Virus record (IMG/VR): IMGVR_UViG_3300028299_000021
Coordinates: 1-28,538 of that record
Direction: 5' to 3' (one strand)
Origin: a virus
DNA length: 28,538 bases
The notes under the pieces are model-generated. The model was not told where the DNA came from. It did not search any database and worked only from the letters and a program-made list of their open reading frames with translations. A program made the position numbers and the translations under genes. This document shows positions 282 through 17,951 of this stretch, one piece after another; position 1 is the first letter of the stretch; every line of letters begins with the position of its first letter.

Positions 282-626
282 TTATTTATTGAATACTATG
301 AAAATGAATAGGAAAAGCGCTGCGCCGGTCCAGGCTGCCAGCATGTCTCTCCAGGAAAAGCCATCGCCGCCCCAGTTGTATTCGATCGGCCATCTGGTGA
401 TATAGCCCGCTTTCCAGGATAGCAGCCCATCCTTGATTTCCCAGAAGAACCAGAACAGTCCACTGATCAGACTGCCGATCACAGCCGATTTGCAGATAAT
501 CGCTGCCAATAGGGCCACAACGATTCCGCCCAGAAAATGCTGAAACTTGTCATAACTCAGGACGCCGCTTCCGGCAAAGCTAAATTCCTGAGATTTCCAC
601 TTGTCTTTGGCAAACTGAAATTTCAT
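282..626 (-). CDS. Small integral membrane protein following the DGR
   Basis: 114 residues with two or three hydrophobic segments (about 31-60 and 92-112) separated by a polar part with EIKDG and NWGGDGFSWRDMLAAWTGA. The DK-x-QHF-x-GG start, the central E-x-x-DG and the FSWRD-x-LA-x-x-G block resemble the DUF2279/YfiM-like or VanZ-like small membrane proteins, but I cannot make a firm family call. Its ATG overlaps the reverse transcriptase stop by four bases (ATGA), and a GAGGC ribosome site lies upstream, so the two genes are probably translated together. A holin-like or surface role is possible; nothing in the sequence decides it. Confidence 0.7.
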   Translation of the reverse strand: MKFQFAKDKWKSQEFSFAGSGVLSYDKFQHFLGGIVVALLAAIICKSAVIGSLISGLFWFFWEIKDGLLSWKAGYITRWPIEYNWGGDGFSWRDMLAAWTGAALFLFIFIVFNK

Positions 627-1642
627 GATAGCGCCTCGTATCTTAATACTATATTTGATAAAATATTTTTACGGGCATGATAACTCTGCGCCCATTTTGC
701 ATAGCCGATTAAACTCTGAACCGCGCTATGAATTTTTTCAAATGTAATCATCCCGTCTGAAAACTGCCGGGAATATTTCCTGAACTTTCGCTTGTTTTTG
801 ATGACGTTTCGTTTCCGTAGCAGTCTAAATTCTTGATACTGACGATAGCCTAAAAAATCGATTCCCTGAGACAGCGGAAACACTTTTGTTTTGCCATTCA
901 ATTGTAAATGTAATTCATCCACCAGGTATTTATTAATTTGAGATAGTATTTCCCAGAGCTGCGATTTATTATTTGATAAAATTACAAAATCATCCATATA
1001 GCGGATATAATGTTCACAATGCAATATTTCTTTTACATAATGATCGAGGCTGTTTAGGTATATATTAGCAAATAACTGGCTGGTTAGATTCCCTAATGGA
1101 ATGCCAATTTTTTGATGATTTGAATTAATAATTTCATCGATCAGCCATAATGTGTCCGGACATTTGATTTTCTTACGGATCAAAGATTTTAAAATATCGT
1201 TGTTAATTGAATAGAAATATTTCCTGATATCACATTTCAAAACATAAATAGAATCAGATCTTGCCCTGATAAAATTCTGCAATCGGGTAATTCCTTTATG
1301 AGTTCCCTTATTTACCCGGCAGGCATAAGAATCAAAAATAAATACCCGGTCGAAAATCGGCTCGATCAAATTGCAAAGCGCATGATGAATAATCCGGTCA
1401 CGAAAAGGAAGCGCTGAAATTAATCGTCTTTTAGGATCGGTGATATAAAAATCTCGATATTTTCCGGTTTCGTATGTTTTATTTTTCAATTCTTCAATCA
1501 AGTCAAAAAGATTAGATTCGCGGTTCAGTTCAAAGTCTAATACCGTCTTGTCGTAACGGTGACCGTTTCGGGCTTTATGATAAGCTCTTTCCATATTAGG
1601 ATATCTGATAATCTGTTCGAATAAATTTCCGTGTCGTTTCAT
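623..1642 (-). CDS. DGR reverse transcriptase
   Basis: 339 residues, a normal length for reverse transcriptases of diversity-generating retroelements. Catalytic residues are visible: D138 in LKCDIRKYF and the YMDD box at 215-218 (RYMDDFVIL). The motif IPLGNLTSQ (181-189) has Q where most group II intron and retron enzymes have P, as in the known DGR enzymes such as Bordetella phage BPP-1 bRT. It would copy the template repeat RNA into cDNA with errors at adenines, working with Avd. It lies just downstream of the template repeat, as in BPP-1. The ATG has only a weak ribosome site and overlaps the end of the reading frame running through the template repeat. The gene is visibly more AT-rich than the structural genes. 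Confidence 0.97.
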   Translation of the reverse strand: MKRHGNLFEQIIRYPNMERAYHKARNGHRYDKTVLDFELNRESNLFDLIEELKNKTYETGKYRDFYITDPKRRLISALPFRDRIIHHALCNLIEPIFDRVFIFDSYACRVNKGTHKGITRLQNFIRARSDSIYVLKCDIRKYFYSINNDILKSLIRKKIKCPDTLWLIDEIINSNHQKIGIPLGNLTSQLFANIYLNSLDHYVKEILHCEHYIRYMDDFVILSNNKSQLWEILSQINKYLVDELHLQLNGKTKVFPLSQGIDFLGYRQYQEFRLLRKRNVIKNKRKFRKYSRQFSDGMITFEKIHSAVQSLIGYAKWAQSYHARKNILSNIVLRYEALS

Positions 1643-1958
1643 AATATTAAAAGTTTGAGAGAGGCGGATTTTCGTCCGGCCCGCCTGCTGTTCGGGCAGA
1701 CAGCCGCCGGATTACCAATCCGCCGCCCCCTGTTTTTCCTTTTTGTCGTTAACTTATCGACATGGGTTGATATTCCTTTTAATACTGCACTGTCCGAACA
1801 TCCGTAAATATCCGGTCTCTGGCTTTTTTTAAAAGCGGAACGGAAACCTATATTGTTATTCGAATTGGTTACTACATTATTCATGTTCATTGCAAACAAT
1901 CCTGTATTGATTCCATTATTCCAATTTCCAGCCCGTAGCGGGACAAACATTAACAATA
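1643..1958 (-). ncRNA. DGR template-repeat RNA (TR plus downstream spacer)
   Basis: This interval lies between the avd stop and the reverse transcriptase start and contains the template repeat plus about 190 nt of spacer. In BPP-1 the equivalent RNA primes and templates adenine-mutagenised cDNA. The spacer holds GC-rich self-complementary pieces, for example GCCCG/CGGGC and GGATT-GGT-AATCC around 1680-1725, in keeping with a structured RNA. RNA ends are not visible, so the coordinates are only those of the gap. A 107-codon reading frame also runs through it (see findings). Confidence 0.6.
1831..1945 (-). repeat. DGR template repeat (TR)
   Basis: About 115 bp matching the end of the target gene at 2347-2461 (offset 516). 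On the coding strand there are 20 mismatches, and every one is an A in this copy: 10 A-to-G, 6 A-to-C and 4 A-to-T in the variable copy. The codons are rich in AAC/AAT, the usual DGR design. The 20 bases at 1831-1850, at the 3' end on the coding strand, are identical in both copies and are where the initiation-of-mutagenic-homing region is expected. Confidence 0.97.
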
Positions 1959-2297
1959 TCAACCCCTTTGTACAGATTTAATCCACCCTCCCAGCATTCT
2001 TCCTATTTCAGATAGTTTCTGGGAAAGAATTTCGTATTTTTTATACGGTAAAAAAGAAAGGTCTCTGGCTAAACGTACCTTATATTGCAATGTATTTAAC
2101 AATACATCCAAATTAAAAAGGTCCGGCAGTTTATTTCTCTTTTTATTGGCGATAATAATCAAAGAAATCATTTCATAAAAGTCTTTCCGAATATCCGCCG
2201 CAAGAATAAATTTCTCGCTCTTCGGAAAATACCGAAGAGCGATATAGGCATATTGCGTTGCTTCATATGTCTTTTCCAAAATTGATAGATCTTGCAT
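1959..2297 (-). CDS. avd: DGR accessory variability determinant (Avd)
   Basis: 112 residues from the ATG at 2297, which has GGAG six bases upstream; the longer frame starting at 2348 would overlap the variable repeat and is unlikely. The protein is all-helical and basic. It ends in IGRMLGGWIKSV, which matches the tail of Bordetella phage Avd (VGRILGSWIARV). Avd is a four-helix-bundle protein related to the S23 ribosomal insertion family. It forms a pentamer that binds RNA/DNA and the reverse transcriptase, and is needed for mutagenic retrohoming. It lies between variable and template repeats as in BPP-1. The call rests on position, size, helical pattern and the C-terminal motif. Confidence 0.9.
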   Translation of the reverse strand: MQDLSILEKTYEATQYAYIALRYFPKSEKFILAADIRKDFYEMISLIIIANKKRNKLPDLFNLDVLLNTLQYKVRLARDLSFLPYKKYEILSQKLSEIGRMLGGWIKSVQRG

Positions 2298-2319
2298 CAA
2301 ATACTCCAAAAACAAATTA

Positions 2320-4212
2320 TCAAGTGACAGATGACAAATTGCCAACAAAAGCGGAACGGAAACCTACACTGTCATTCGAATCGGTTACCACACCAGGCAT
2401 GTGCAGCGCAAACAATCCTGAACTGAGACCATAATACCAATGCCCAGCCCGTAGCGGGACATTGTTTTCACCTACATCCGGTTTGTAAAAATAGTCGTTT
2501 CCGTAATCGCCGGCACCTGCGCCGTCTGCTGCAATTAAAGCCAGTTTTTCGGCGTCTGCATCAGAATAAGCACCCGCCGGCGTAAAAGCCGTGGCATTTT
2601 CATTTCTAAAGACTTCGTCTGTTAAACTTCCCCATTCACCGATTTGCACCCACGGGGCGCCCGGCGCCGTAGCAATGTTTTTCAATTGCGCCGGTGTGGC
2701 TATTGCCGCCTCGTTATTTGGTATAATCCAGGCTTGTTTTCCAGTACCGGCATCCGGACTCTGTAGACCAATTATCCATTCCCAGATCAATCCATTCATA
2801 TCGAATATACCTGATATATCCAGATTGTGTGCGGTAAGCGGACCGCCGGATCCGGTTCTCCAGCGCCCGTAGTAAGGCGCCCCATAATCTCCTGCTCCAC
2901 TTCCGATTGTCAGGAGTTCATTCAGAACTGCGCCGGTAATTCCCTTTGCATCGATATCCTGCCCGTAGTTATTGTTGCCGCGTGGGAAATGTGCCAGAAT
3001 CGTACCCACAATCATCTGTCTTGTCCAGATTGCAATCGCCGCCGCCTCGGCATTTGTGACGGCATGAAATAGATTTTTATCCGTCCGCATCTGGGCGGAG
3101 TTTTTGGCCTCGCAGATATCAATTGCTTCGTTGAAGTTCAGAAACACAGCGGGATCTTCAAACGGCAAAGATGCGCCCACGGCATTGGATTTGTTCCAGC
3201 CGGTGGTATGGGCTGTGATGATCTGCCCGGTGGTCTTATCAATCGCTACGTTTTTGAATTTCGAATACCAGAATCCGGCATGTTCGACGCCATTCCAGAT
3301 AAAAGCCGGATGAACTACTGTGCTCGCAAATCCGTTGATCGGGTCCCAGTTAAACTTCGGAATGAAGACATATACTCCGGGTATGCCGTATTGATCGTAC
3401 AGAATTCGGTTATTCGGGAGATTGTTGTAAGCCAGAAGATTCTCGATATAGCCGCGATTTGTTATTATATCCGCACCGGTCACGTTTGATGATGATGCGA
3501 TAACTTTTCCATCAGCGTTGGACTCCAGAATGCGACTTGCCGTCAGCGGCAAACTTGCGGCTTCCGGAAGCGTGGGCTTATTCAGCACATTCGACCAGTC
3601 TACTTTTGAGGCGTCGATTTTTTTATAATCACCGGTCACGCTGCCGTTATTCTGAAAAAGTTGCCAGAGTTCAATGGTTTCATCAGCCAAAGTAATACTT
3701 ACGACGTCGCCCTTCTGGACGGAGCCGTCAGTCCATTCATTGGCGATATAATCCGCCAGGGTTGCCTCGGCAGATACAATAATATCGATAATAGCCAGGG
3801 GTGGAATCTGAGCTTCCGGTATTTTAGAATTTTCATCGAGTGTAGCCACGCCGTTCGCAGCGGCTCGCTGGGTCTTTGGAATCAGCAGACCCTCAGCAGT
3901 TCCCGCCCGGTCAACTTCATCTTTTAATCCCATGTCCAGAGCGTCAACACTGGCAGTGACCGATTCTTCATCCGTGACATAATTATCTTCAGTATAGGTC
4001 CGGGGACCGATGGCCGTCGACTGATCACTGATATCCGACTCATTGCTGTTGACCTGGCTGATGATGCTCCCAAAATTGGTATTCAGGAATGATTTAAGAT
4101 TGCTCCACCAGGAGCGTGGTACCTCCGGGAAATTACCCAGGGTGACCGTTCCCAGAACGAGAAATGATAAGATCATTCCTAAAATATTGTGGTCAAATGT
4201 TGGAACTTGCAT
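2320..4212 (-). CDS. DGR target: fibre-like protein with C-terminal C-type-lectin/FGE-like variable domain
   Basis: 630 residues. The N-terminus has a hydrophobic stretch (about 9-26), then RSWWSNLKSFLNTN shared with the left-edge gene, then a low-complexity tail-fibre-like region with the linker GVATLDENSKIPEAQIPPL. The C-terminal third resembles formylglycine-generating-enzyme/C-type-lectin domains (GLIWEWIIG, ending in GFRSAF). The variable repeat encodes PLRAGHWYYGLSSGLFALHM onward, ending in GFRSAF nine codons before the stop. Fourteen residues there differ from the template. In known DGRs this fold displays the variable side chains for ligand binding. Receptor binding at the phage tail is likely. 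The hydrophobic N-terminus leaves membrane anchoring open. Confidence 0.9.
   Translation of the reverse strand: MQVPTFDHNILGMILSFLVLGTVTLGNFPEVPRSWWSNLKSFLNTNFGSIISQVNSNESDISDQSTAIGPRTYTEDNYVTDEESVTASVDALDMGLKDEVDRAGTAEGLLIPKTQRAAANGVATLDENSKIPEAQIPPLAIIDIIVSAEATLADYIANEWTDGSVQKGDVVSITLADETIELWQLFQNNGSVTGDYKKIDASKVDWSNVLNKPTLPEAASLPLTASRILESNADGKVIASSSNVTGADIITNRGYIENLLAYNNLPNNRILYDQYGIPGVYVFIPKFNWDPINGFASTVVHPAFIWNGVEHAGFWYSKFKNVAIDKTTGQIITAHTTGWNKSNAVGASLPFEDPAVFLNFNEAIDICEAKNSAQMRTDKNLFHAVTNAEAAAIAIWTRQMIVGTILAHFPRGNNNYGQDIDAKGITGAVLNELLTIGSGAGDYGAPYYGRWRTGSGGPLTAHNLDISGIFDMNGLIWEWIIGLQSPDAGTGKQAWIIPNNEAAIATPAQLKNIATAPGAPWVQIGEWGSLTDEVFRNENATAFTPAGAYSDADAEKLALIAADGAGAGDYGNDYFYKPDVGENNVPLRAGHWYYGLSSGLFALHMPGVVTDSNDSVGFRSAFVGNLSSVT
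2347..2461 (-). repeat. DGR variable repeat (VR)
   Basis: Copy of the template repeat inside the last 38 or so codons of the target gene. All 20 differences from the template are at template adenines on the coding strand, giving changes such as N to H, Y, S, P, G and D. Both edges (AAAAGCGG and the CGTAGCGGGAC end) are unchanged. The unmutated end encodes GFRSAF. Confidence 0.97.
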
Positions 4213-4240
4213 GATATTCTCCTTTATTTAGTTTTTTTTT

Positions 4241-4332
4241 ACCACTAAGGCACCAAGACACGAAATATTTTTTAATTTTTAATTTTGAATTTTGAATTCT
4301 CATTTGTGCCTTTGTGTCTTCGTGGTTGCCTT
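4241..4332. repeat. Family-1 interspersed element, full length
   Basis: An arm ACCACTAAGGCACCAAGACA and an inverted arm near the other end (GTGTCTTCGTGGTTGCC) flank an AT-rich centre made of TTTTAATTTTTAATTTTG-type sequence. It begins a few bases after the stop codon of the 4337-4765 gene and fills the gap before the DGR target. Related copies occur near 4779-4985, 8018-8168, 15731-15806 and 24434-24463. Confidence 0.85.
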
Positions 4333-4336
4333 ATCT

Positions 4337-4765
4337 TTATGTTTCACTGTCATCCACCATTGCTGAAGACTGGATACTTTTTTTGAACTGAGTATTGAAA
4401 TAATCCTTGAGGATGCTATCGATCTCCCCGATATAAATCTCCCGCTGCATGGCAACTTCCTTCGGACTGAGGAACTTAAACTGAGTATCGCCGATATTCC
4501 CCTGGTGACTGATGCCTCCGGTCAGAACCCAGACCATATTGAGCCGGGGCAGGGCATAAAAGAGCACAAAATAGGCTTCCGCCATTTTGAGATCTTCCGC
4601 CCGGTCCTCATTTTCCGGAGTTACACTGCCTGCGTCGGTGTAGATGGTTTCGCCGACAAGCTTCTTCAATCGCCGGGCCGCTCTCCCGGTGAAGGGTTCC
4701 AGGATGTCATCATCCACATCGGGAAACCCGCCAATGCCTTTGATCTGGATATAGCTTGTGATCAT
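4337..4765 (-). CDS. Probable head-tail connector/completion protein
   Basis: 142 residues, no clear catalytic motif. It begins MITSYIQIKGIGGFPDVDDD, then an acidic and helical body with RAEDLKMAEAYFVLFYALPRLN and a C-terminal helix rich in charged residues. In Mu-like phages the gene one or two places after the major capsid protein is the gp36-type head-completion protein. A short protein starting with a possible metal or helix cap and a conserved AEAYFVLFYALP-type helix fits small phage connectors. The family is inferred from position and size, not recognised directly. The stop is followed at once by a repeat element. Confidence 0.5.
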   Translation of the reverse strand: MITSYIQIKGIGGFPDVDDDILEPFTGRAARRLKKLVGETIYTDAGSVTPENEDRAEDLKMAEAYFVLFYALPRLNMVWVLTGGISHQGNIGDTQFKFLSPKEVAMQREIYIGEIDSILKDYFNTQFKKSIQSSAMVDDSET

Positions 4766-8017: not shown

Positions 8018-8191
8018 AACCACAAAAGAATTATATATAAAAATACTTTGTGCCTTAGTGTCTTGGTGGTTTATCATTCTACTATCAACATTGAAACCAC
8101 AAAAGCACGAAGACCCTAAGAAAGAATTATATATAAAAATACTTTGTGCCTTAGTGTCTTGGTGGTTTCTCCGTATCATTCTACTATCAAC
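8018..8191. repeat. Family-1 elements in tandem with duplicated portal-gene end
   Basis: Two copies of the element's right part (GAATTATATATAAAAATACT through TCTTGGTGGTTT) lie at 8028-8072 and 8124-8168, 96 bp apart. The 17 bp ATCATTCTACTATCAAC, which include the portal stop codon, occur at 8073-8089 and again at 8175-8191. The whole 7955-8175 gap is therefore repeat; the 67-codon reading frame in it is repeat-encoded and not a gene. Confidence 0.95.
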
Positions 8192-10473
8192 TCCGTTTTA
8201 CATTCCGGGTGAAAGGGCGGCATACCTTCACCGCTCAATGCAAAGGCATTCATATCTGCTGCAGAGGACACGCCGATCGGATGCAGCCAGCCTTCAAACT
8301 CCTGGGGCGTCATCAGTGACAGCGTCTGCAGGCCTTCCCGGAGGTTTGGAACATTGATGGAATGACCGTTCAGGTATCTGCAGATCTCGGCAATGGGCGC
8401 CGGGTTATAATACTTCGCGGTTTTGATCCCCGCTTCAAAAAGTTGCCCCACATGGCCCCAGTTGCGCAAGCGGGAAACCGATGTGTTCACAATCCTCCGA
8501 ACCTGGGCCTGGGATAGGTCGATCATTTTATCCTGGAAGACGCCCCGGAATTTTGCCAGGGTGTCGGGATCGAATACGGACTTGCCTTTTTCCAGGTAAT
8601 GCTCCTTCAGGAATGTCACCATCGGGCTGCGGACGCCATTGTTTTTCACATATTTGCCCATATAGAACTGGTCCAGTTTTTCGAGGAATCCCAGCGCCCG
8701 GTCATCCACGGTATCAAAGGAAAAGGAGAGAGGTGAGTTCGGATCGAAGAGGGATTTGTCATCAAGCCGGTAAAAGGCAAATATCTGCCGTATCTGGTTG
8801 GCCACTTTCAGGCGGACGGTATTGTCCGTCATTTGCATGGCCACCACGCCTTCCGTCAGGTTCATTGTTTGCCGGGCAAAATCCGCCTCGTCCGTGAAGT
8901 CCTCAAACTTATGCTCCCGGATGAAATCACTCACCGCCGTGGCCGCTTTGCTATTGGCAGTTTTATTGAAGGGGAGGACGCTGTTCAAATACTTCGTGAC
9001 GCGTTCGGCAAAGAGATCTTCCGACCCCGCTGCCAGTTCCCGGCTTTGGACTTTGGAGGCTGAACATTGAACCATACTCCGGACGGGAATATATTTCTGC
9101 TGCAATTTGGAGAATTGAAATCTTACCTTGTTTTTAGTGAAATTAGTAGTTGAATTCTGCTGCCTGATTTCCTCATCGCTCAGCCAGGGTTCGTCGTAGC
9201 CCAATTCCTGGGCGGCTTGCTCCTGGTTGATAAATCCGGCGTCACGTTTCTTGATAATGTTTTCCAGGCGTTTGGCTTCCGCTTCTTCCTGGTCTTTGCG
9301 GTTCATCCCGGGGATCGGATTCCACTGGAACATGACTCCATCCGTGAGGATCCCCATGGTCAGCAGATCCAGGCGGTAGGTCGATTCCATCCGGCGCTTG
9401 GCCAGGCGGCGGAAATTACCGGCGTCGTTCACCAGCATATTGTAGACCACACCCGCGTATGTTTCGGTAGTGGAATAGGAGCGCCCGTGCATCGCCGGAT
9501 CGGTGCCGATGCCGGAAAAGACCTGCTCCTCATTCATCTGCATAATGTCCTTGGCACCCCGGGCCTCGCCGGTGATATTGAAATGCTCGATGGTCTGGTC
9601 GTTGTATTTTACCATCATGCCCTGGCTGAAATTCTTGTTCATGGAGTCCAGGACGGTGGAGGCGTATTCTTCGCAGTGGCTTTTATATTCCGCTTCGGTC
9701 TCGTTCGGCTGCCGGTTCGGCGGCGTCAGGCTGAGCGATACCAATCCCAGCAAACCGAGTTTCTTGGCGATAAAGGCAATATTCTTGAGCATATCCCGCT
9801 GGGTGATGATCGGCTCGATCGCCGCCAGCATGGGCGGAACCGGGTATGGTGAATTCTCGATTGTCTGGTAGCAGTATATTTTATAGGTGGTCTCATTCAG
9901 TTTGATCAGGTAGCCGTCGGACGTGAGCTGTGTATTTGAAGTGAAAGGATCGGTGATACTCTGGTAAGGTCGATAATCATTGTCCTCATATTTGAAGCGG
10001 ATCCTGCGCACCGGGACGATATGCACCCGCCGGACGCCCTTCAGGTTGAGATTTAATTCATCTTCGCTGGAGATGGCACCCATGCGTCCGATCTGGGCCA
10101 GGTAATGATTCAGCAGGCCGTCCACGCCGGCGGAGCGCTGATAGATTTCATAAGAGAGTATGTTGATCCGGTCAATGGCCGTTTCGATCATCCGGTCGCT
10201 GCCTTCGATGATCACCTGGTGACCGGTATTGGCAATGTTCACCCAGTTCTTCACCGCCTGGGACATATCCGCATTCACCAGGGAAATCTGTTCGCAGAAC
10301 TGATACATCCAGGCCGGCAGATCCGGGCCGAGGCCGTCCAGCCAGCTGCGGTATTGACGAATACCCCCCAGCAGGGAGCTCGCCTCTTCGATTGAAGAGC
10401 GGCCCCCTATTGGGAGTCTCAGTCCCTCAGCGGTTGGGTTTTTCTTAAAACTTATCGGCCATTGCAGTTTCAT
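8176..10473 (-). CDS. Portal protein fused to Mu F-like minor head protein
   Basis: 765 residues. The first about 440 look like a DUF935/Mu gp29-type portal protein (helical, ending with AEAKRLENIIKKRDAGFINQ and EQAAQELGYDEPWLSDEEIR, the usual portal C-terminal pattern). The rest, from about 500, ends with MPPFHPECKTEL (751-762), which matches the PPxHPxCR end of the Mu gpF/SPP1 gp7 minor head family. In Mu these are the two adjacent genes 29 and 30, so this is a fusion of neighbours. The portal forms the DNA entry ring; the F part is a head-morphogenesis protein. The Shine-Dalgarno GGAG for the portal start lies in a family-3 repeat. Confidence 0.88.
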   Translation of the reverse strand: MKLQWPISFKKNPTAEGLRLPIGGRSSIEEASSLLGGIRQYRSWLDGLGPDLPAWMYQFCEQISLVNADMSQAVKNWVNIANTGHQVIIEGSDRMIETAIDRINILSYEIYQRSAGVDGLLNHYLAQIGRMGAISSEDELNLNLKGVRRVHIVPVRRIRFKYEDNDYRPYQSITDPFTSNTQLTSDGYLIKLNETTYKIYCYQTIENSPYPVPPMLAAIEPIITQRDMLKNIAFIAKKLGLLGLVSLSLTPPNRQPNETEAEYKSHCEEYASTVLDSMNKNFSQGMMVKYNDQTIEHFNITGEARGAKDIMQMNEEQVFSGIGTDPAMHGRSYSTTETYAGVVYNMLVNDAGNFRRLAKRRMESTYRLDLLTMGILTDGVMFQWNPIPGMNRKDQEEAEAKRLENIIKKRDAGFINQEQAAQELGYDEPWLSDEEIRQQNSTTNFTKNKVRFQFSKLQQKYIPVRSMVQCSASKVQSRELAAGSEDLFAERVTKYLNSVLPFNKTANSKAATAVSDFIREHKFEDFTDEADFARQTMNLTEGVVAMQMTDNTVRLKVANQIRQIFAFYRLDDKSLFDPNSPLSFSFDTVDDRALGFLEKLDQFYMGKYVKNNGVRSPMVTFLKEHYLEKGKSVFDPDTLAKFRGVFQDKMIDLSQAQVRRIVNTSVSRLRNWGHVGQLFEAGIKTAKYYNPAPIAEICRYLNGHSINVPNLREGLQTLSLMTPQEFEGWLHPIGVSSAADMNAFALSGEGMPPFHPECKTELIVE

Positions 10474-10531: not shown

Positions 10532-12172
10532 TCATCTCAAATTCCCAAACACCGGCGGAATTCCTACAAACTTATTAAAATCCATCTGCATTAGGCGGAA
10601 TGCTTTCCGGGCGTTGTTCCCTGCCATGAGGTAATGGTTCTCCACCTGTTTGCGGTAGCGGGTAATCGTCTTGCCGGTTTTCTGGTCAAGCACTTCTTCT
10701 TTTTGAGCGCCCTTCAGGTGATGCTTGCCGAATTCACTCTCCACGACGTCCACACCATCGATAAACATGGGAATGATGATCCCCGCCGGTTTCATGGTAT
10801 AGAGGTCGGTGTATTCATCCAGGGAGTCATCCCGGTCTTCCTGCACGGTCCGGTATTCCGTCTCTTCGTGTTCCTCGGTTCCTTCGGAAAACCCGGTGTC
10901 CTTGAAATATTGCAGCACCACGATATTGGGAAAACGGCGGTAGAGTTTGCGGACTTCCGTCCGGAAAGGCTTGGCGTCGATTACAAAGCAGCGGCAGTTC
11001 ATGGCAATGATCAACTTCGAGATCACGTCCACCATATTATCTGAAAAGCATTTCTTAATCGTTACAAAACGGAGTTTTTCGCTGTGAACATCGGCAAAAG
11101 TGAGGTGGCAATAGTCGCCCACATCGGCCCCGCCCACCGACCAACTGGCTGAATCGGCCAGTGGATAATTGTCGGCTGCCCGGTGCAAATCATCAGCGGT
11201 GATTCGCTGGCGGTCGCCGGCGTCGGGAACGGCCAATGTGGAACAGCGAAATTTCGACAGCAGGGATTTCTTTTTCTGGGCCCGTTCCCAGCGCTGCATG
11301 ATCTTACCGAGTTGTATCTGGGGAACGATCAGCTGCGGTATCCGCAGACCGACCACCCGCCGGTCGGGATATTTGGCCACAAAACGCCCGTCCTTTTCCA
11401 CGTCAAAGGGCTTCCCGCACTTTGGGCAGGCATAATAAAACTTGCCACCATCAAATAAAACGAAATCCGGATTGCCCTCTTTCGGCCAGCCCTCTTCCAG
11501 ATTCAGATCGTCCAGGCCGCAATGGGGACACTTGATCAGCCAGACCATCTGGCTGGTGTCCTGGAACCCGGCGTCAATGCCCATGCCCGGATTCATACCC
11601 ACCGAGAAATAGCATCGCTGCTGAAAATCCGACGCCGCGATCCGGTCTTCCGACCAGGCCATATTAATGGCATTCAGAATATCCACTTCATCATAGCCGA
11701 GCGCATCCAGGGGAATGGATATTGCGTCGGATATATCTTCCATGCCGAGCATGTAGAGAAAATTATTGCCCACTTCCATCAGGCCGTCGGAAGTCGTGAC
11801 CTTGATCTGGCTGTTCAGCGTCCGGTCTTTCCGGACCGCAACCTTGAACCTGGTCTTGATAAAACGTTTGGCAAAAACTTTGGTCGGCAGCCCGTAGCCG
11901 ATATTATAGCCCCGCCCCAGCAGCAGCCACATGTAATAGCCCAGGAACAGGGTGGAGATACCGATCTGGGCTCCCTTCAGTATCCAGGCCTCTTCCCAGT
12001 TCACCAGGTTTTCCGCGATATAGCGGAAGGCTTCGTGTTTTTCAAAGGTGTAGGGACCGCGGTCATGATGGACGTGGTTCAACAAGAAATCCGTAAATGT
12101 CCCGCTCTGGATTTTGGAAACCTTCAGGCTCTGTTTAGATGCTTTTAATATTTCGTCTTTATTAATAACCAT
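10532..12172 (-). CDS. Terminase large subunit (Mu gp28/GpA-like)
   Basis: 546 residues. The ATPase half has a degenerate Walker A, KGAQIGIST (66-74), and a Walker B-like LDALGYDEVD (155-164). Two CxxC pairs (C215/C218 and C249/C252) form a zinc ribbon as in GpA-type terminases. The C-terminal half has D-rich nuclease-like segments, VGGADVGDYCHLTFADV and CRCFVIDAKP. The enzyme cuts and packages phage DNA into the prohead through the portal encoded next door. In transposable phages it performs headful packaging from integrated copies. Its ATG lies within a family-2 repeat, directly after the small-terminase stop. Confidence 0.92.
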   Translation of the reverse strand: MVINKDEILKASKQSLKVSKIQSGTFTDFLLNHVHHDRGPYTFEKHEAFRYIAENLVNWEEAWILKGAQIGISTLFLGYYMWLLLGRGYNIGYGLPTKVFAKRFIKTRFKVAVRKDRTLNSQIKVTTSDGLMEVGNNFLYMLGMEDISDAISIPLDALGYDEVDILNAINMAWSEDRIAASDFQQRCYFSVGMNPGMGIDAGFQDTSQMVWLIKCPHCGLDDLNLEEGWPKEGNPDFVLFDGGKFYYACPKCGKPFDVEKDGRFVAKYPDRRVVGLRIPQLIVPQIQLGKIMQRWERAQKKKSLLSKFRCSTLAVPDAGDRQRITADDLHRAADNYPLADSASWSVGGADVGDYCHLTFADVHSEKLRFVTIKKCFSDNMVDVISKLIIAMNCRCFVIDAKPFRTEVRKLYRRFPNIVVLQYFKDTGFSEGTEEHEETEYRTVQEDRDDSLDEYTDLYTMKPAGIIIPMFIDGVDVVESEFGKHHLKGAQKEEVLDQKTGKTITRYRKQVENHYLMAGNNARKAFRLMQMDFNKFVGIPPVFGNLR

Positions 12173-12197: not shown

Positions 12198-12722
12198 TTA
12201 TTTTATCTCTCTCTCTAAACTTTCATCGATCTTTTCCAGAATATATTCTTCCCGCTCTCTCAGCAGCGGCCCGATATCGTCATCCTCCAGCAGCACCTTC
12301 CAGATCACGCCCACAATCACATCCAGGTTGTTCCCGGCGGACTTCAACCCGGTATTCCGGGAACCCCGCAGGGCGTCGATATATTTCCGGATCTTGAGCA
12401 GCGCATTCACCCCGCCCTCGAAACTGGTGGGTGATGTTATTTTCAGGGACTTTGTAATCTGGTTCTCAATAACGCCCAGTTCTTCTATAAATTCCGTAAA
12501 GGTGGATATCCGTTTTTTATCCGCCGCTGTTTCCGCCCGGCGCTGGATCGCCGCCCGGCGCTCTTCCCAGTTGCCCTCTTTGGCCCATTGCTCCAGGGTC
12601 TTGCGGTTGAGTTTGAAATCCTTCCGGCGTTTCCGGGACATCTCCTTGATCATCGAATCAAAGGACAATCCCTGGCTGAAATAGCCGAATGCTTCTTCTT
12701 TGATTTTCTGGGAGTAGGCCAC
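12198..12722 (-). CDS. Terminase small subunit candidate
   Basis: 174 residues starting with GTG, which overlaps the previous stop (TAGTG). The N-terminal part has a helix-turn-helix-like region (FSQGLSFDSMIKEMSRKRR) followed by LNRKTLEQWAKEGNWEERRA, a pattern typical of phage small terminases, where a tryptophan-rich wHTH leads into a helical oligomerisation region. The remainder is helical (ENQITKSLKITS, VIWKVLLEDDDIGPLLRERE). It lies directly upstream of the large subunit. It would bind phage DNA and regulate packaging. Confidence 0.8.
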   Translation of the reverse strand: MAYSQKIKEEAFGYFSQGLSFDSMIKEMSRKRRKDFKLNRKTLEQWAKEGNWEERRAAIQRRAETAADKKRISTFTEFIEELGVIENQITKSLKITSPTSFEGGVNALLKIRKYIDALRGSRNTGLKSAGNNLDVIVGVIWKVLLEDDDIGPLLREREEYILEKIDESLEREIK

Positions 12723-12976
12723 TATCTCATTATCCTGGCAAAAAAGGTGATGATATTATTGGCATTCATGAGGCCAAACATGGAGACCCCGATGCCGATC
12801 CCGGTCAGCAGTGTCTTGAACGGATGGTCCCGCATGATTTTCACAATGCCCCATTTCGCTTCGTTGTTTGTATGGTAATTGAGGTGTTCAATTAATTTGT
12901 CCTGGAGGATGAGTTGAACTTCGGATATTTCATGTTCAAGCCGTTCCAGATCCTTTTTGAATTCATTTAAATCCAA
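12722..12976 (-). CDS. Small coiled-coil membrane protein
   Basis: 84 residues: an N-terminal coiled coil (LNEFKKDLERLEHEISEVQL) followed by one transmembrane segment (about 54-80, FKTLLTGIGIGVSMFGLMNA). This layout (amphipathic helix then a single membrane span) is seen in XhlA-like and other phage lysis-associated or spanin-type proteins. It lies two genes after the endolysin and overlaps both neighbours by a few bases, so it belongs to the same late operon. A lysis role is suggested by position only. Confidence 0.7.
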   Translation of the reverse strand: MDLNEFKKDLERLEHEISEVQLILQDKLIEHLNYHTNNEAKWGIVKIMRDHPFKTLLTGIGIGVSMFGLMNANNIITFFARIMR

Positions 12977-13361
12977 TTTCTTCTTTGACCTTTAAAAATG
13001 TTTTGAAATTTTCATCGTCGAGCTGAATGCCGGTGAGCCGTTTGCGCAGCTGCACATAGTAATCCATGATCTTGAAAATCCGGCCGTCCAGGTTTGACAT
13101 CTCATTCTGTTCCTTTTCAATCGCCGGTTCTTTCTTGGGGACCGCTATGGATTGAAACTCGATCATGGCCACCTCAAGCAGCGTGGATAACATTTTCACG
13201 GTATTTTCGAGGTTCTTGATCCGCTCCTGGTTCTGGGTGTGGTCGCCGGTACTGCCTTTTTCAAGCAATTGCATCAGCCCGATCATCTCATTCGAGATAT
13301 CGGAGATTGTTTTGATTTTTCGGTTTAACTCGTCAATCAGAGTCTTATTGGACATGATCAC
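12963..13361 (-). CDS. Coiled-coil protein, hypothetical
   Basis: 132 residues, largely coiled coil with charged helices (LIDELNRKIKTISDISNEMI; QERIKNLENTVKMLSTLLEV). Between endolysin and terminase genes in Mu-like phages there are usually short helical proteins (for example DUF2730-type), and this one fits the slot. There are no catalytic motifs and no membrane span. It overlaps the membrane-protein gene by 14 bases and could pair with it as a two-component assembly. Family not recognised. Confidence 0.65.
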   Translation of the reverse strand: MIMSNKTLIDELNRKIKTISDISNEMIGLMQLLEKGSTGDHTQNQERIKNLENTVKMLSTLLEVAMIEFQSIAVPKKEPAIEKEQNEMSNLDGRIFKIMDYYVQLRKRLTGIQLDDENFKTFLKVKEEIGFK

Positions 13362-13370
13362 CTCAATTTT

Positions 13371-13955
13371 TTACGATTTATTTATTTCAACCCGCGACAG
13401 CCAGCCGCCGGCAAAGGCTTCCTGGCTCGGGTCTTTTTGCATGATCTCCAGGTAATACGCGCCCTGGAGAAGATTCAAAACCTTATACAACATTGCCGCG
13501 CCCCTGGTCTTCAGACAGAGATGCAGCGCCGCGATCGACATTTTACCGATCGCCCGGTCCACCGGGATATCATTGTAGGTTTTTCCGTTGCGGTTCAGGA
13601 CATTCAGCGCCTTCTGCAGAAACTCCGCTGCCCGGCCGACTCCCATATTGACCGCCGTATCGAACAGTTCTTCCGCAATCAGTTGATCCGGTATCTCGTC
13701 GCCGTGAACTTTGTCCCAGAAGTTTTGTTTGTAGAATTGTAGAATCAGGCCCTGCAGGTCTGCATCGGCCAGGTATTGATTGCTGAAGCTTCCGGTTTTA
13801 TGCTTGACGGCGTCCACAAACTTCCAGCCCGGCCAGTCAGGATGTTTCCGCCGGGCAATACCGCAGAGCGTTTCACCGCCCCGGTCATTGGGGTCATTGA
13901 CGTATCCGCCCTCGTGGCTGAGGGTCTTCTCAAAGGCTGCTTCGAACTTGGCTAT
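13371..13955 (-). CDS. GH108 endolysin (peptidoglycan hydrolase), AUA start proposed
   Basis: The open frame runs from 13988 to 13371 and encodes an N-acetylmuramidase of glycoside hydrolase family 108: TLSHEGGYVNDPNDRGGET carries the conserved EGGY with the presumed catalytic Glu. A C-terminal peptidoglycan-binding region has AAEFLQKALNVLNRNGKTYN and VDRAIGKMSIAAL. No ATG, GTG or TTG lies in frame before GTG 13817, which would remove the catalytic half. The codons ATA GCC AAG TTC at 13955 would give the usual MAKFE start if ATA were ATG, and the result is 194 residues, normal length. A nearby ATG (13963) with an ideal ribosome site is one frame off and stops after three codons. Either AUA initiates or the gene carries a point or indel change. 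Confidence 0.85.
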   Translation of the reverse strand: MAKFEAAFEKTLSHEGGYVNDPNDRGGETLCGIARRKHPDWPGWKFVDAVKHKTGSFSNQYLADADLQGLILQFYKQNFWDKVHGDEIPDQLIAEELFDTAVNMGVGRAAEFLQKALNVLNRNGKTYNDIPVDRAIGKMSIAALHLCLKTRGAAMLYKVLNLLQGAYYLEIMQKDPSQEAFAGGWLSRVEINKS

Positions 13956-13988
13956 CTTCTCATCCCCGGTTCCTCTTTGATCACTGTC

Positions 13989-14094
13989 CTAAAAATCAAG
14001 TAAAAAATAAGGAATGAAACACTCCCGTGACGTCATACTTGCGAAGGATGCGAAGGATGCGAAAATAGACAAAGAAAGTTTGCTTTTTCGAGGT
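13989..14094. promoter_or_regulatory. Late-operon leader with GCGAAGGAT iterons
   Basis: A stretch with three direct repeats (GCGAAGGAT, GCGAAGGAT, GCGAAAAT at 14041-14058) and a TGACGTCA palindrome around 14029-14036, lying between the early-operon terminator and the first late gene. In Mu the late promoters need an activator (C protein) that binds such sites. No convincing -35/-10 pair was found, as expected for an activated promoter. The late-promoter role is inferred from position. Confidence 0.45.
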
Positions 14095-14120
14095 AAAAAG
14101 AAAACCCCGACGGATCGGGG
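14095..14120 (-). terminator. Intrinsic terminator of the early/middle operon
   Basis: On the minus strand CCCCGA-TCCG-TCGGGG is a perfect 6-bp GC-rich stem with a 4-base loop, followed at once by TTTTCTTTTT. It lies 25 bases past the DUF5131 stop codon and separates the early/middle genes from the late lysis-head-DGR operon. Confidence 0.92.
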
Positions 14121-14145
14121 CAATATAAAACATTTCCCAAAAAAT

Positions 14146-15030
14146 CTAATCCACAGCGGCAGATACCCTTAGAAAACTTTTCCGCACGAGTTCCAGACAC
14201 TTTGCCCATCCCATCGGCTTTCCGAATTTTTCCCCTGCTTCGCCTCCCGGATACTCATTCCACACCCGGCCATCAAGTAATCGTCCGGCCTTTTTCTTAT
14301 TTGACCCGCCCCATTGCTTGAAGAAAAACGGCACTCCCGCAGCCAGGCATTGATCCCGCAACGACCGCGCCCAGTCCGGGCGCATCGGTCTGGCGTTCGG
14401 TCCCGATTCCCCGCCGCAGATCACCCAGTTGAGATGATCTATAGCATAATCACATTCATGTGCGCTTTCAGTGCGGTCACACCACTTTAATTCATCTGAT
14501 CTTAAATCTACAGGACTAAGCATCGGCTCCACACTCACAAAGCGCACCGCCGCCGGGATCTGCAGTAGGACAGGAATACGTTGATCAGCTGTTTTCTGAT
14601 TCTCAATCGATACGCCAAGCCAGAGATTTTTTAGTGGGTTGTTATTTTTTAGATTAAATGGATTTAGAGTATATTTATTAAAAAAATCATACATTCTTTT
14701 GGGACGTTTAGTTAATATTATAAAGGTGTGCTGTGGACATTTTTTAATAATCAATAACACTTCTATAACTGCCTCAAAACAAACATCTTTATGAAACAAA
14801 TCTCCCATGCTACATACAAATATTCGTCGCGCCTGCCTCCATTTCAGTGGCTGGTTTAGTTTGTCCCAGTGATATGTTATCTTAAACGGATTCTCCGCCG
14901 GATATCCAAATCTTCCTCTCAATCGCTTCGCCATCTTCTCAGCATAGCAATTCGCACAGCCTTCGCTGATCTTCGTGCAGCCGGTGATCGGGTTCCATGT
15001 ATCATTGGTCCATTCTATTTTTGTCGCCAT
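14146..15030 (-). CDS. DUF5131 (phage Gp37/Gp68 family) three-Cys protein
   Basis: 294 residues, full length for DUF5131. The N-terminus holds WNPITGCTKISEGCANCYAE with C18-x6-C25-x2-C28, the three-Cys motif that gives the family its name, and later blocks IFVCSMGDLFHKDV, VRFVSVEPMLSP, WVICGGESGPNARPM and PFFFKQWGG all match family hallmarks. The protein is thought to be a radical-SAM-like iron-sulfur enzyme, but its substrate is unknown. It is common in phages, often with the partner TcmP, which is not seen in this window. It is the last gene before the terminator. Confidence 0.93.
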   Translation of the reverse strand: MATKIEWTNDTWNPITGCTKISEGCANCYAEKMAKRLRGRFGYPAENPFKITYHWDKLNQPLKWRQARRIFVCSMGDLFHKDVCFEAVIEVLLIIKKCPQHTFIILTKRPKRMYDFFNKYTLNPFNLKNNNPLKNLWLGVSIENQKTADQRIPVLLQIPAAVRFVSVEPMLSPVDLRSDELKWCDRTESAHECDYAIDHLNWVICGGESGPNARPMRPDWARSLRDQCLAAGVPFFFKQWGGSNKKKAGRLLDGRVWNEYPGGEAGEKFGKPMGWAKCLELVRKSFLRVSAAVD

Positions 15031-17238: not shown

Positions 17239-17556
17239 TCACTTTTTAATTGTTACAATGACTCCGTTGATCCGCTGGGCGCTGAACTCTTTACGGCATT
17301 TATTGCAGTTGTGAGTAAGGGGATGTTCTTTGATCACCGCCTTGGCCTGCATATATCCGCAATGGGGACAGGAGAGGCCAGCCTCTTTTTTATTCTTTTC
17401 TTCCGGATTGATTCTATTGTAACTGTCCACCAGCTGCTTCATTTCATTTTCATGAAGCATCAGCGTGGGCGAGTGAAAGTCATCGCCGACCTCATTGATC
17501 ATATAGTAATGGGTTTTCGGATCTGCGGCATTGATCAGTTTGCTAAGTTGGTACAT
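17239..17556 (-). CDS. Zinc-ribbon protein, hypothetical
   Basis: 105 residues from the ATG at 17556 (ribosome site GGGGAGGACAAA); the longer frame starting at 17748 overlaps the holin gene and is not used. Two CxxC pairs (C63/C66 in SCPHCGYM, C84/C87 in NCNKCRKE) form a zinc ribbon. Its start overlaps the holin stop as TAATG, so the two are translated together. Phage zinc ribbons often bind nucleic acid or RNA polymerase; which one is unclear here. Confidence 0.7.
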   Translation of the reverse strand: MYQLSKLINAADPKTHYYMINEVGDDFHSPTLMLHENEMKQLVDSYNRINPEEKNKKEAGLSCPHCGYMQAKAVIKEHPLTHNCNKCRKEFSAQRINGVIVTIKK

Positions 17557-17951
17557 TATTTTGTCCTCCCCTGGAGTTTTTCGACTGTTCTCATGGCTCC
17601 CATTCCCAGCATGGCCCAGACCAGTTTCATGATCGATTCCGTCGGCAAATCCGGCCCTGGATTGCCTGATATCCATTGCACGATTGGATTGATCAGGAAG
17701 ATGAATGCCAGCCCGCCGCCGCAGATCCAGCCGATAGCCGGACGCCAACCCGCCACAAATAGCGACCGGTGTCCCGCTTCGATCTTGTTCAGTTCGTTTT
17801 GCAGTTCGCCGGGGTGCTGTCTTATCTTGTCCATGACCGCCTGGGCTTGCATCTTTTCTTCCTGGTTTGTGAAAATCTTATCCACGGCGTTGCCGATGGC
17901 GTCGATCGGCGCCGCCGCCGAACCGCCAAGAATTTTATCAAAGAGTCCCAT
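17556..17951 (-). CDS. GTA-type 3TM holin
   Basis: 131 residues. HRSLFVAGWRPAIGWICGGG is the hallmark of the 3TM holin family (PF11351) found in gene transfer agents and Mu-like phages, and MLGMGAMRTVEKLQGRTK is the usual end. Two clear spans lie at about 72-95 and 107-121, with an N-terminal amphipathic helix. It would permeabilise the inner membrane and let the endolysin out. The endolysin is about 4 kb away, past a terminator, so the two lysis genes lie in different operons. Confidence 0.85.
   Translation of the reverse strand: MGLFDKILGGSAAAPIDAIGNAVDKIFTNQEEKMQAQAVMDKIRQHPGELQNELNKIEAGHRSLFVAGWRPAIGWICGGGLAFIFLINPIVQWISGNPGPDLPTESIMKLVWAMLGMGAMRTVEKLQGRTK

Follow-up and report, generated by a model that had tools for sequence, protein, structure and literature searches.

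Results

The endolysin frame and its surroundings

The window, meaning the whole stretch of DNA analysed, is a 28.5 kb virus record that carries a Mu-like transposase, a terminase, a portal, a head protease and a major head protein (PHROG), together with a Mu Gam-like protein and an AAA ATPase in the MuB position, which on account of that position we take to be MuB. The source is a Mu-like transposable phage, and the endolysin heads its head and packaging gene block. On the minus strand, an in-frame TAG (13991-13989) is followed by 205 sense codons and a closing TAA (13373-13371). Read from an ATA at 13955, this frame (13371-13955, minus strand) would give a protein of 194 amino acids with a Glyco_hydro_108 domain (Pfam, E 1.7e-23, 83.3 bits against a gathering score of 21.2) and a C-terminal PG_binding_3 domain (E 9.4e-14, 51.8 bits against a cut-off of 24.6). 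It matches the endolysin family phrog_315 (E 7.9e-40) and is related to the solved structures PDB 6v3z and 6v40. By these matches the frame is a GH108 muramidase-type endolysin with predicted muramidase activity; both domains exceed their curated cut-offs, which bears out the identification made in an earlier note on this DNA. The conserved Glu of the HEGGY (EGG) motif, which we take to be the catalytic residue, is residue 26 of the frame (13911-13913, minus strand) and occupies a column that is 98% conserved, being Glu in 158 of the 161 aligned loci, the window included.

Downstream on the same strand lie an unassigned gene (12963-13355), two further genes (12722-12976 and 12198-12722), the large terminase (10532-12172) and the portal (8176-10473). 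The gene 12722-12976 starts with TTG and the gene 12198-12722 with GTG; the GTG shares bases with the preceding stop (TAGTG) and stands in a context, ATGAGATAGTGGCC, that is similar to the endolysin leader, ATGAGAAGATAGCC. Besides the endolysin one lysis gene was recognised, a holin (GTA_holin_3TM, 17556-17951, minus strand; PF11351, E 8.2e-14; phrog_3427 holin, E 4.6e-26), and no second endolysin was seen among the window proteins scanned. Between the endolysin and the DUF5131 gene upstream of it (14146-15030, minus strand), a consensus scan alone picks out a terminator-like hairpin (14104-14121, minus strand); the region has seven such hairpins against 5.0 expected in shuffles, about the number due to chance. 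The DUF5131 gene has the lowest codon-usage score of the 24 genes scored (0.014 per codon), which may reflect recent acquisition.

The gene order from 12722-12976 through terminase, portal and protease is common to phages in other genomes, found by way of the portal. Portals about 40-45% identical occur in 3 of the 40 genomes of the G017 group, a fourth match being marginal. In three regions of shared order (L170, L171 and L173) a search with the GH108 query turned up no endolysin at the corresponding position; GH108 genes in or near such regions were found at L174 and, further along the L171 contig, at L172, both with ATG starts.

Elsewhere in the window there is a complete-looking diversity-generating retroelement (623-2461, minus strand), made up of a reverse transcriptase (RVT_1 in Pfam, 623-1642), a bAvd accessory protein (1959-2348; PF22296, E 5.6e-29), a template repeat (1831-1945) and a variable repeat (2347-2461) at the C-terminus of a 630-residue protein (2320-4212), all on the minus strand. 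Over 115 nt the two repeats differ at 20 positions, every one a template adenine (10 A>G, 6 A>C, 4 A>T). The variable protein is tail-like (phrog_2889, phrog_1446) and nearly adjoins the head genes (2320-4765). The proteins scanned between these and the variable protein include none recognised as a tail tube, sheath or tape measure, and the record may be a fragment.

The coding part is intact

In a set of 132 homologues, cleared of duplicates, of frames interrupted by stops and of matches that ended short of query residue 180, 31 columns reach at least 80% conservation; the endolysin retains 29 of them, and the two changes are Y to F and T to S. By this measure it ranks 86 of 133, the median being 30 columns. 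Its codon-usage score of 0.279 per codon falls within the range of the other window genes, and the 33 nt from the upstream TAG to the ATA (13988-13956) score -0.09, unlike coding sequence. Given the columns kept and the two codon scores, the coding part starts close to the ATA and shows no trace of decay. The protein is thus intact. Elsewhere among the relatives, one GH108 gene (L190:1498-1671) has a normal ATG start and a stop after 57 codons.

The leader and the out-of-frame mini-ORF

The in-frame codons from 13988 to 13910, read one by one, include no ATG, GTG or TTG, in agreement with the earlier claim that the frame is open from the stop at 13991 without a canonical start before the catalytic motif. 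The ATA at 13955-13953 is the sole codon in this interval that differs from ATG by its third base alone. The earliest in-frame table-11 start is a GTG at 13817, past the conserved Glu, and standard start-codon rules would call the endolysin from there, losing the catalytic part.

The best anti-Shine-Dalgarno pairing in the leader is made by AAAGAGGAA (13970-13978, minus strand; duplex -6.0 kcal/mol), which stands 6 nt before an ATG at 13963-13961 and 14 nt before the ATA, outside the spacing sought for an AUA start. This ATG, 8 nt upstream of the ATA, opens an out-of-frame mini-ORF, ATG AGA AGA TAG (M-R-R; 13952-13963, minus strand), so that the strong ribosome site belongs, as had been proposed, to a dead end of three codons that finishes in ATAG. 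In this overlap the ATA and the TAG (13954-13952) have the -4 spacing of a coupled stop/start pair. The base A 13953 is both the third base of the ATA and the middle base of the TAG; consequently, a single event accounts both for the lack of a start and for the end of the mini-ORF. Folding of 14000-13901 at minimum energy leaves the core of the Shine-Dalgarno sequence, the mini-ORF and the ATA all unpaired.

When the dinucleotides of the 45-nt leader are shuffled, a Shine-Dalgarno sequence followed by an out-of-frame ATG arises in the last 20 nt in 13% of cases, and of 148 homologues that start normally, 6 have an out-of-frame ATG so preceded within 20 nt upstream (one further homologue had too short an upstream sequence to be counted). 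By itself, therefore, this upstream pair is weaker evidence of something beyond chance than is the absent start. One of the six, L067, has ATG AAA AAA TGA overlapping its normal ATG; it was rejected as a conserved parallel of the mini-ORF, given that L075, L078 and L081, which are related to it, read CTG at that place. No such layout is kept among the homologues compared.

The ATA occupies the initiator position of the family

For the comparison of starts, 161 loci including the window were aligned to the frame, and the removal of duplicates left 149 distinct homologues besides the window. In each of the 149 an ATG, GTG or TTG precedes the conserved Glu by no more than 40 codons, and the window alone has none; the odd start codon is thus not conserved, the best relative being 52% identical. 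With the start of each homologue chosen as that nearest to 14 codons before the Glu, a choice that favours 14, it falls at exactly 14 in 74 of the 149 (68 ATG, 4 GTG, 2 TTG), with 46 more at 13, 13 at 15 and 16 at other distances; a start at 17 codons is found in four. Among the best 29 rows besides the window, some of which are duplicates, the start is exactly at 14 in 26, the exceptions being L082, L070 and L019, and in 22 of these 26 the second residue is Ala. The window reads ATA-GCC at this very position (ATA at 13953-13955, minus strand), GCC encoding Ala as in the close relatives. That ATA-GCC stands exactly where the relatives start argues that the ATA is homologous to an initiator codon and is not a random Ile codon. 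The start at 13955 that the earlier note proposed, were the ATA read as Met, agrees with this family position.

No second copy of the phage was found in the records searched, although a near copy may exist outside them. A probe of 23 bases spanning the start matched nothing exactly, and viral contigs yielded no near relative of either the large terminase or the protein encoded at 12198-12722.

Discussion

The endolysin is probably an ordinary member of the GH108 family in which a single substitution, real or miscalled, turned the start codon into ATA. Its ancestor would have had a normal start at the usual family position, 14 codons before the Glu, and a change of one base, either a recent mutation in the phage or a consensus error in an uncultivated record, would then have produced the ATA. 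The good ribosome site would now drive a dead-end ORF of three codons, and only weak initiation would be expected at the AUA, which lies 14 nt from it, so that the copy as read would yield little endolysin. The position of the ATA, the intact protein, the lack of another start and the placement of the ribosome site are observed here; we infer that the change is recent and expression low. One substitution accounts at once for the position of the ATA, the intact protein, the absence of the arrangement in all relatives and the ATAG overlap. Two points count against loss of the start: 8 nt upstream of the ancestral ATG there would already have been an out-of-frame ATG in a better place, which is awkward, yet 6 of 148 relatives are similar; and no second copy of the phage was found to confirm the base.

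Alternatively, the AUA may be a genuine weak start, whereby ribosomes load at the strong Shine-Dalgarno sequence, translate M-R-R and restart at the -4 overlap, the low coupled synthesis delaying lysis. This is doubtful. In its favour are the intact protein, the good ribosome site 6 nt before the mini-ORF and the unpaired state of site, mini-ORF and ATA in the predicted fold. Re-initiation at -4 overlaps is well known, and this is given as the commonest coupled spacing in prokaryotes (PMC12548453). Natural AUA starts also exist: in Staphylococcus aureus, infC, ccpN and citZ are started in this way, reporters with AUA reach about 10% of AUG for ccpN and citZ in poor medium and up to 30% for ccpN in rich medium, and the ccpN start is conserved as far as B. 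subtilis (PMC13009471). However, extended Shine-Dalgarno motifs serve the odd start codon of infC, cvfC1 and ccpN in S. aureus (PMC13009471), and here the motif is 14 nt off. Furthermore, the layout is common to no relative, L067 being similar and its own relatives being without it. The suggestion that re-initiation at the AUA is conceivable through ATAG survives to the extent that the overlap and its -4 spacing are present; because both codons depend on the one base at 13953, the overlap is not an independent sign of design.

A stricter form of the same idea, in which the minicistron AUG AGA AGA UAG sets the time of lysis by feeding terminating ribosomes to the AUA and the endolysin is made solely by rare re-initiation, is unlikely. 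Given that no relative has the same arrangement, there is no conservation pointing to selection, and the earlier proposal that weak initiation serves to put off lysis finds no backing in the comparison. Minigenes with AGA-AGA have a toxic effect in E. coli; since AGA makes up 11% of the Arg codons in the 23 other window genes, a toxic reading of the mini-ORF was set aside. A limited literature search found no case of an endolysin with a non-canonical or AUA start or a minicistron.

Instead, a gap of one base between 13960 and 13956, whether present in the phage or introduced in assembly, could have split the gene from a true start at ATG 13963, and a missing base near 13960 had been put forward as what would overturn the AUA reading. 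Such a gap is possible in that the ATG and the ATA, 8 nt apart, are one base short of a common frame and the Shine-Dalgarno sequence is correctly distant from the ATG. Nevertheless it is quite unlikely, given that the protein would begin 17 codons before the Glu, three codons earlier than the family norm and as in just 4 of the 149 homologues, and that the fall of ATA-GCC on the ATG-GCN of the family would be due to chance. A substitution at the ATA fits the relatives better. Highly improbable is an endolysin extended at its N-terminus (M-T-S-R-E-C...) by readthrough of the TAG at 13991 from an ATG that lies in frame 15 codons upstream: the frame above the TAG is open to this ATG at 14036, but no Shine-Dalgarno-like sequence precedes it by eye, the stretch 13988-13956 has a negative codon score and TAG terminates 6 of the 24 window genes examined. 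On this last count a recoded TAG was likewise rejected. A -1 ribosomal frameshift leading from the frame of the ATG to that of the GH108 domain was also rejected, as AGA AGA T is by eye not slippery.

In summary, the altered start is most likely a one-base change or a sequence error and not a new mode of translation start. As read, the locus is of small import: a standard endolysin with one changed start base in a little-studied group of Mu-like phages. Were the AUA functional, the phage would be starting a lysis gene naturally at AUA and metering lysis by a minicistron, although natural AUA starts as such are already known from S. aureus (PMC13009471).

The likeness to infC, ccpN and citZ of S. 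aureus lies in the AUA as would-be initiator; in that species an extended Shine-Dalgarno sequence serves the AUA of infC and ccpN and the ccpN start is conserved (PMC13009471), whereas in the window the motif stands at 14 nt and there is no conservation. With the coat/lysis coupling of the RNA phages MS2 and fr the window shares a lysis gene possibly started by ribosomes that terminate nearby, but the upstream ORF of those phages is a real gene with a longer overlap (PMC12548453), and that of the window has three codons and may be there by chance. The GH108 (Glyco_hydro_108 / DUF847) plus PG_binding_3 phage endolysins match in domain order, in the Glu of HEGGY and, for most close relatives, in the start distance of 14 codons, and differ in the initiator itself, which is ATG, GTG or TTG in those endolysins and ATA in the window.
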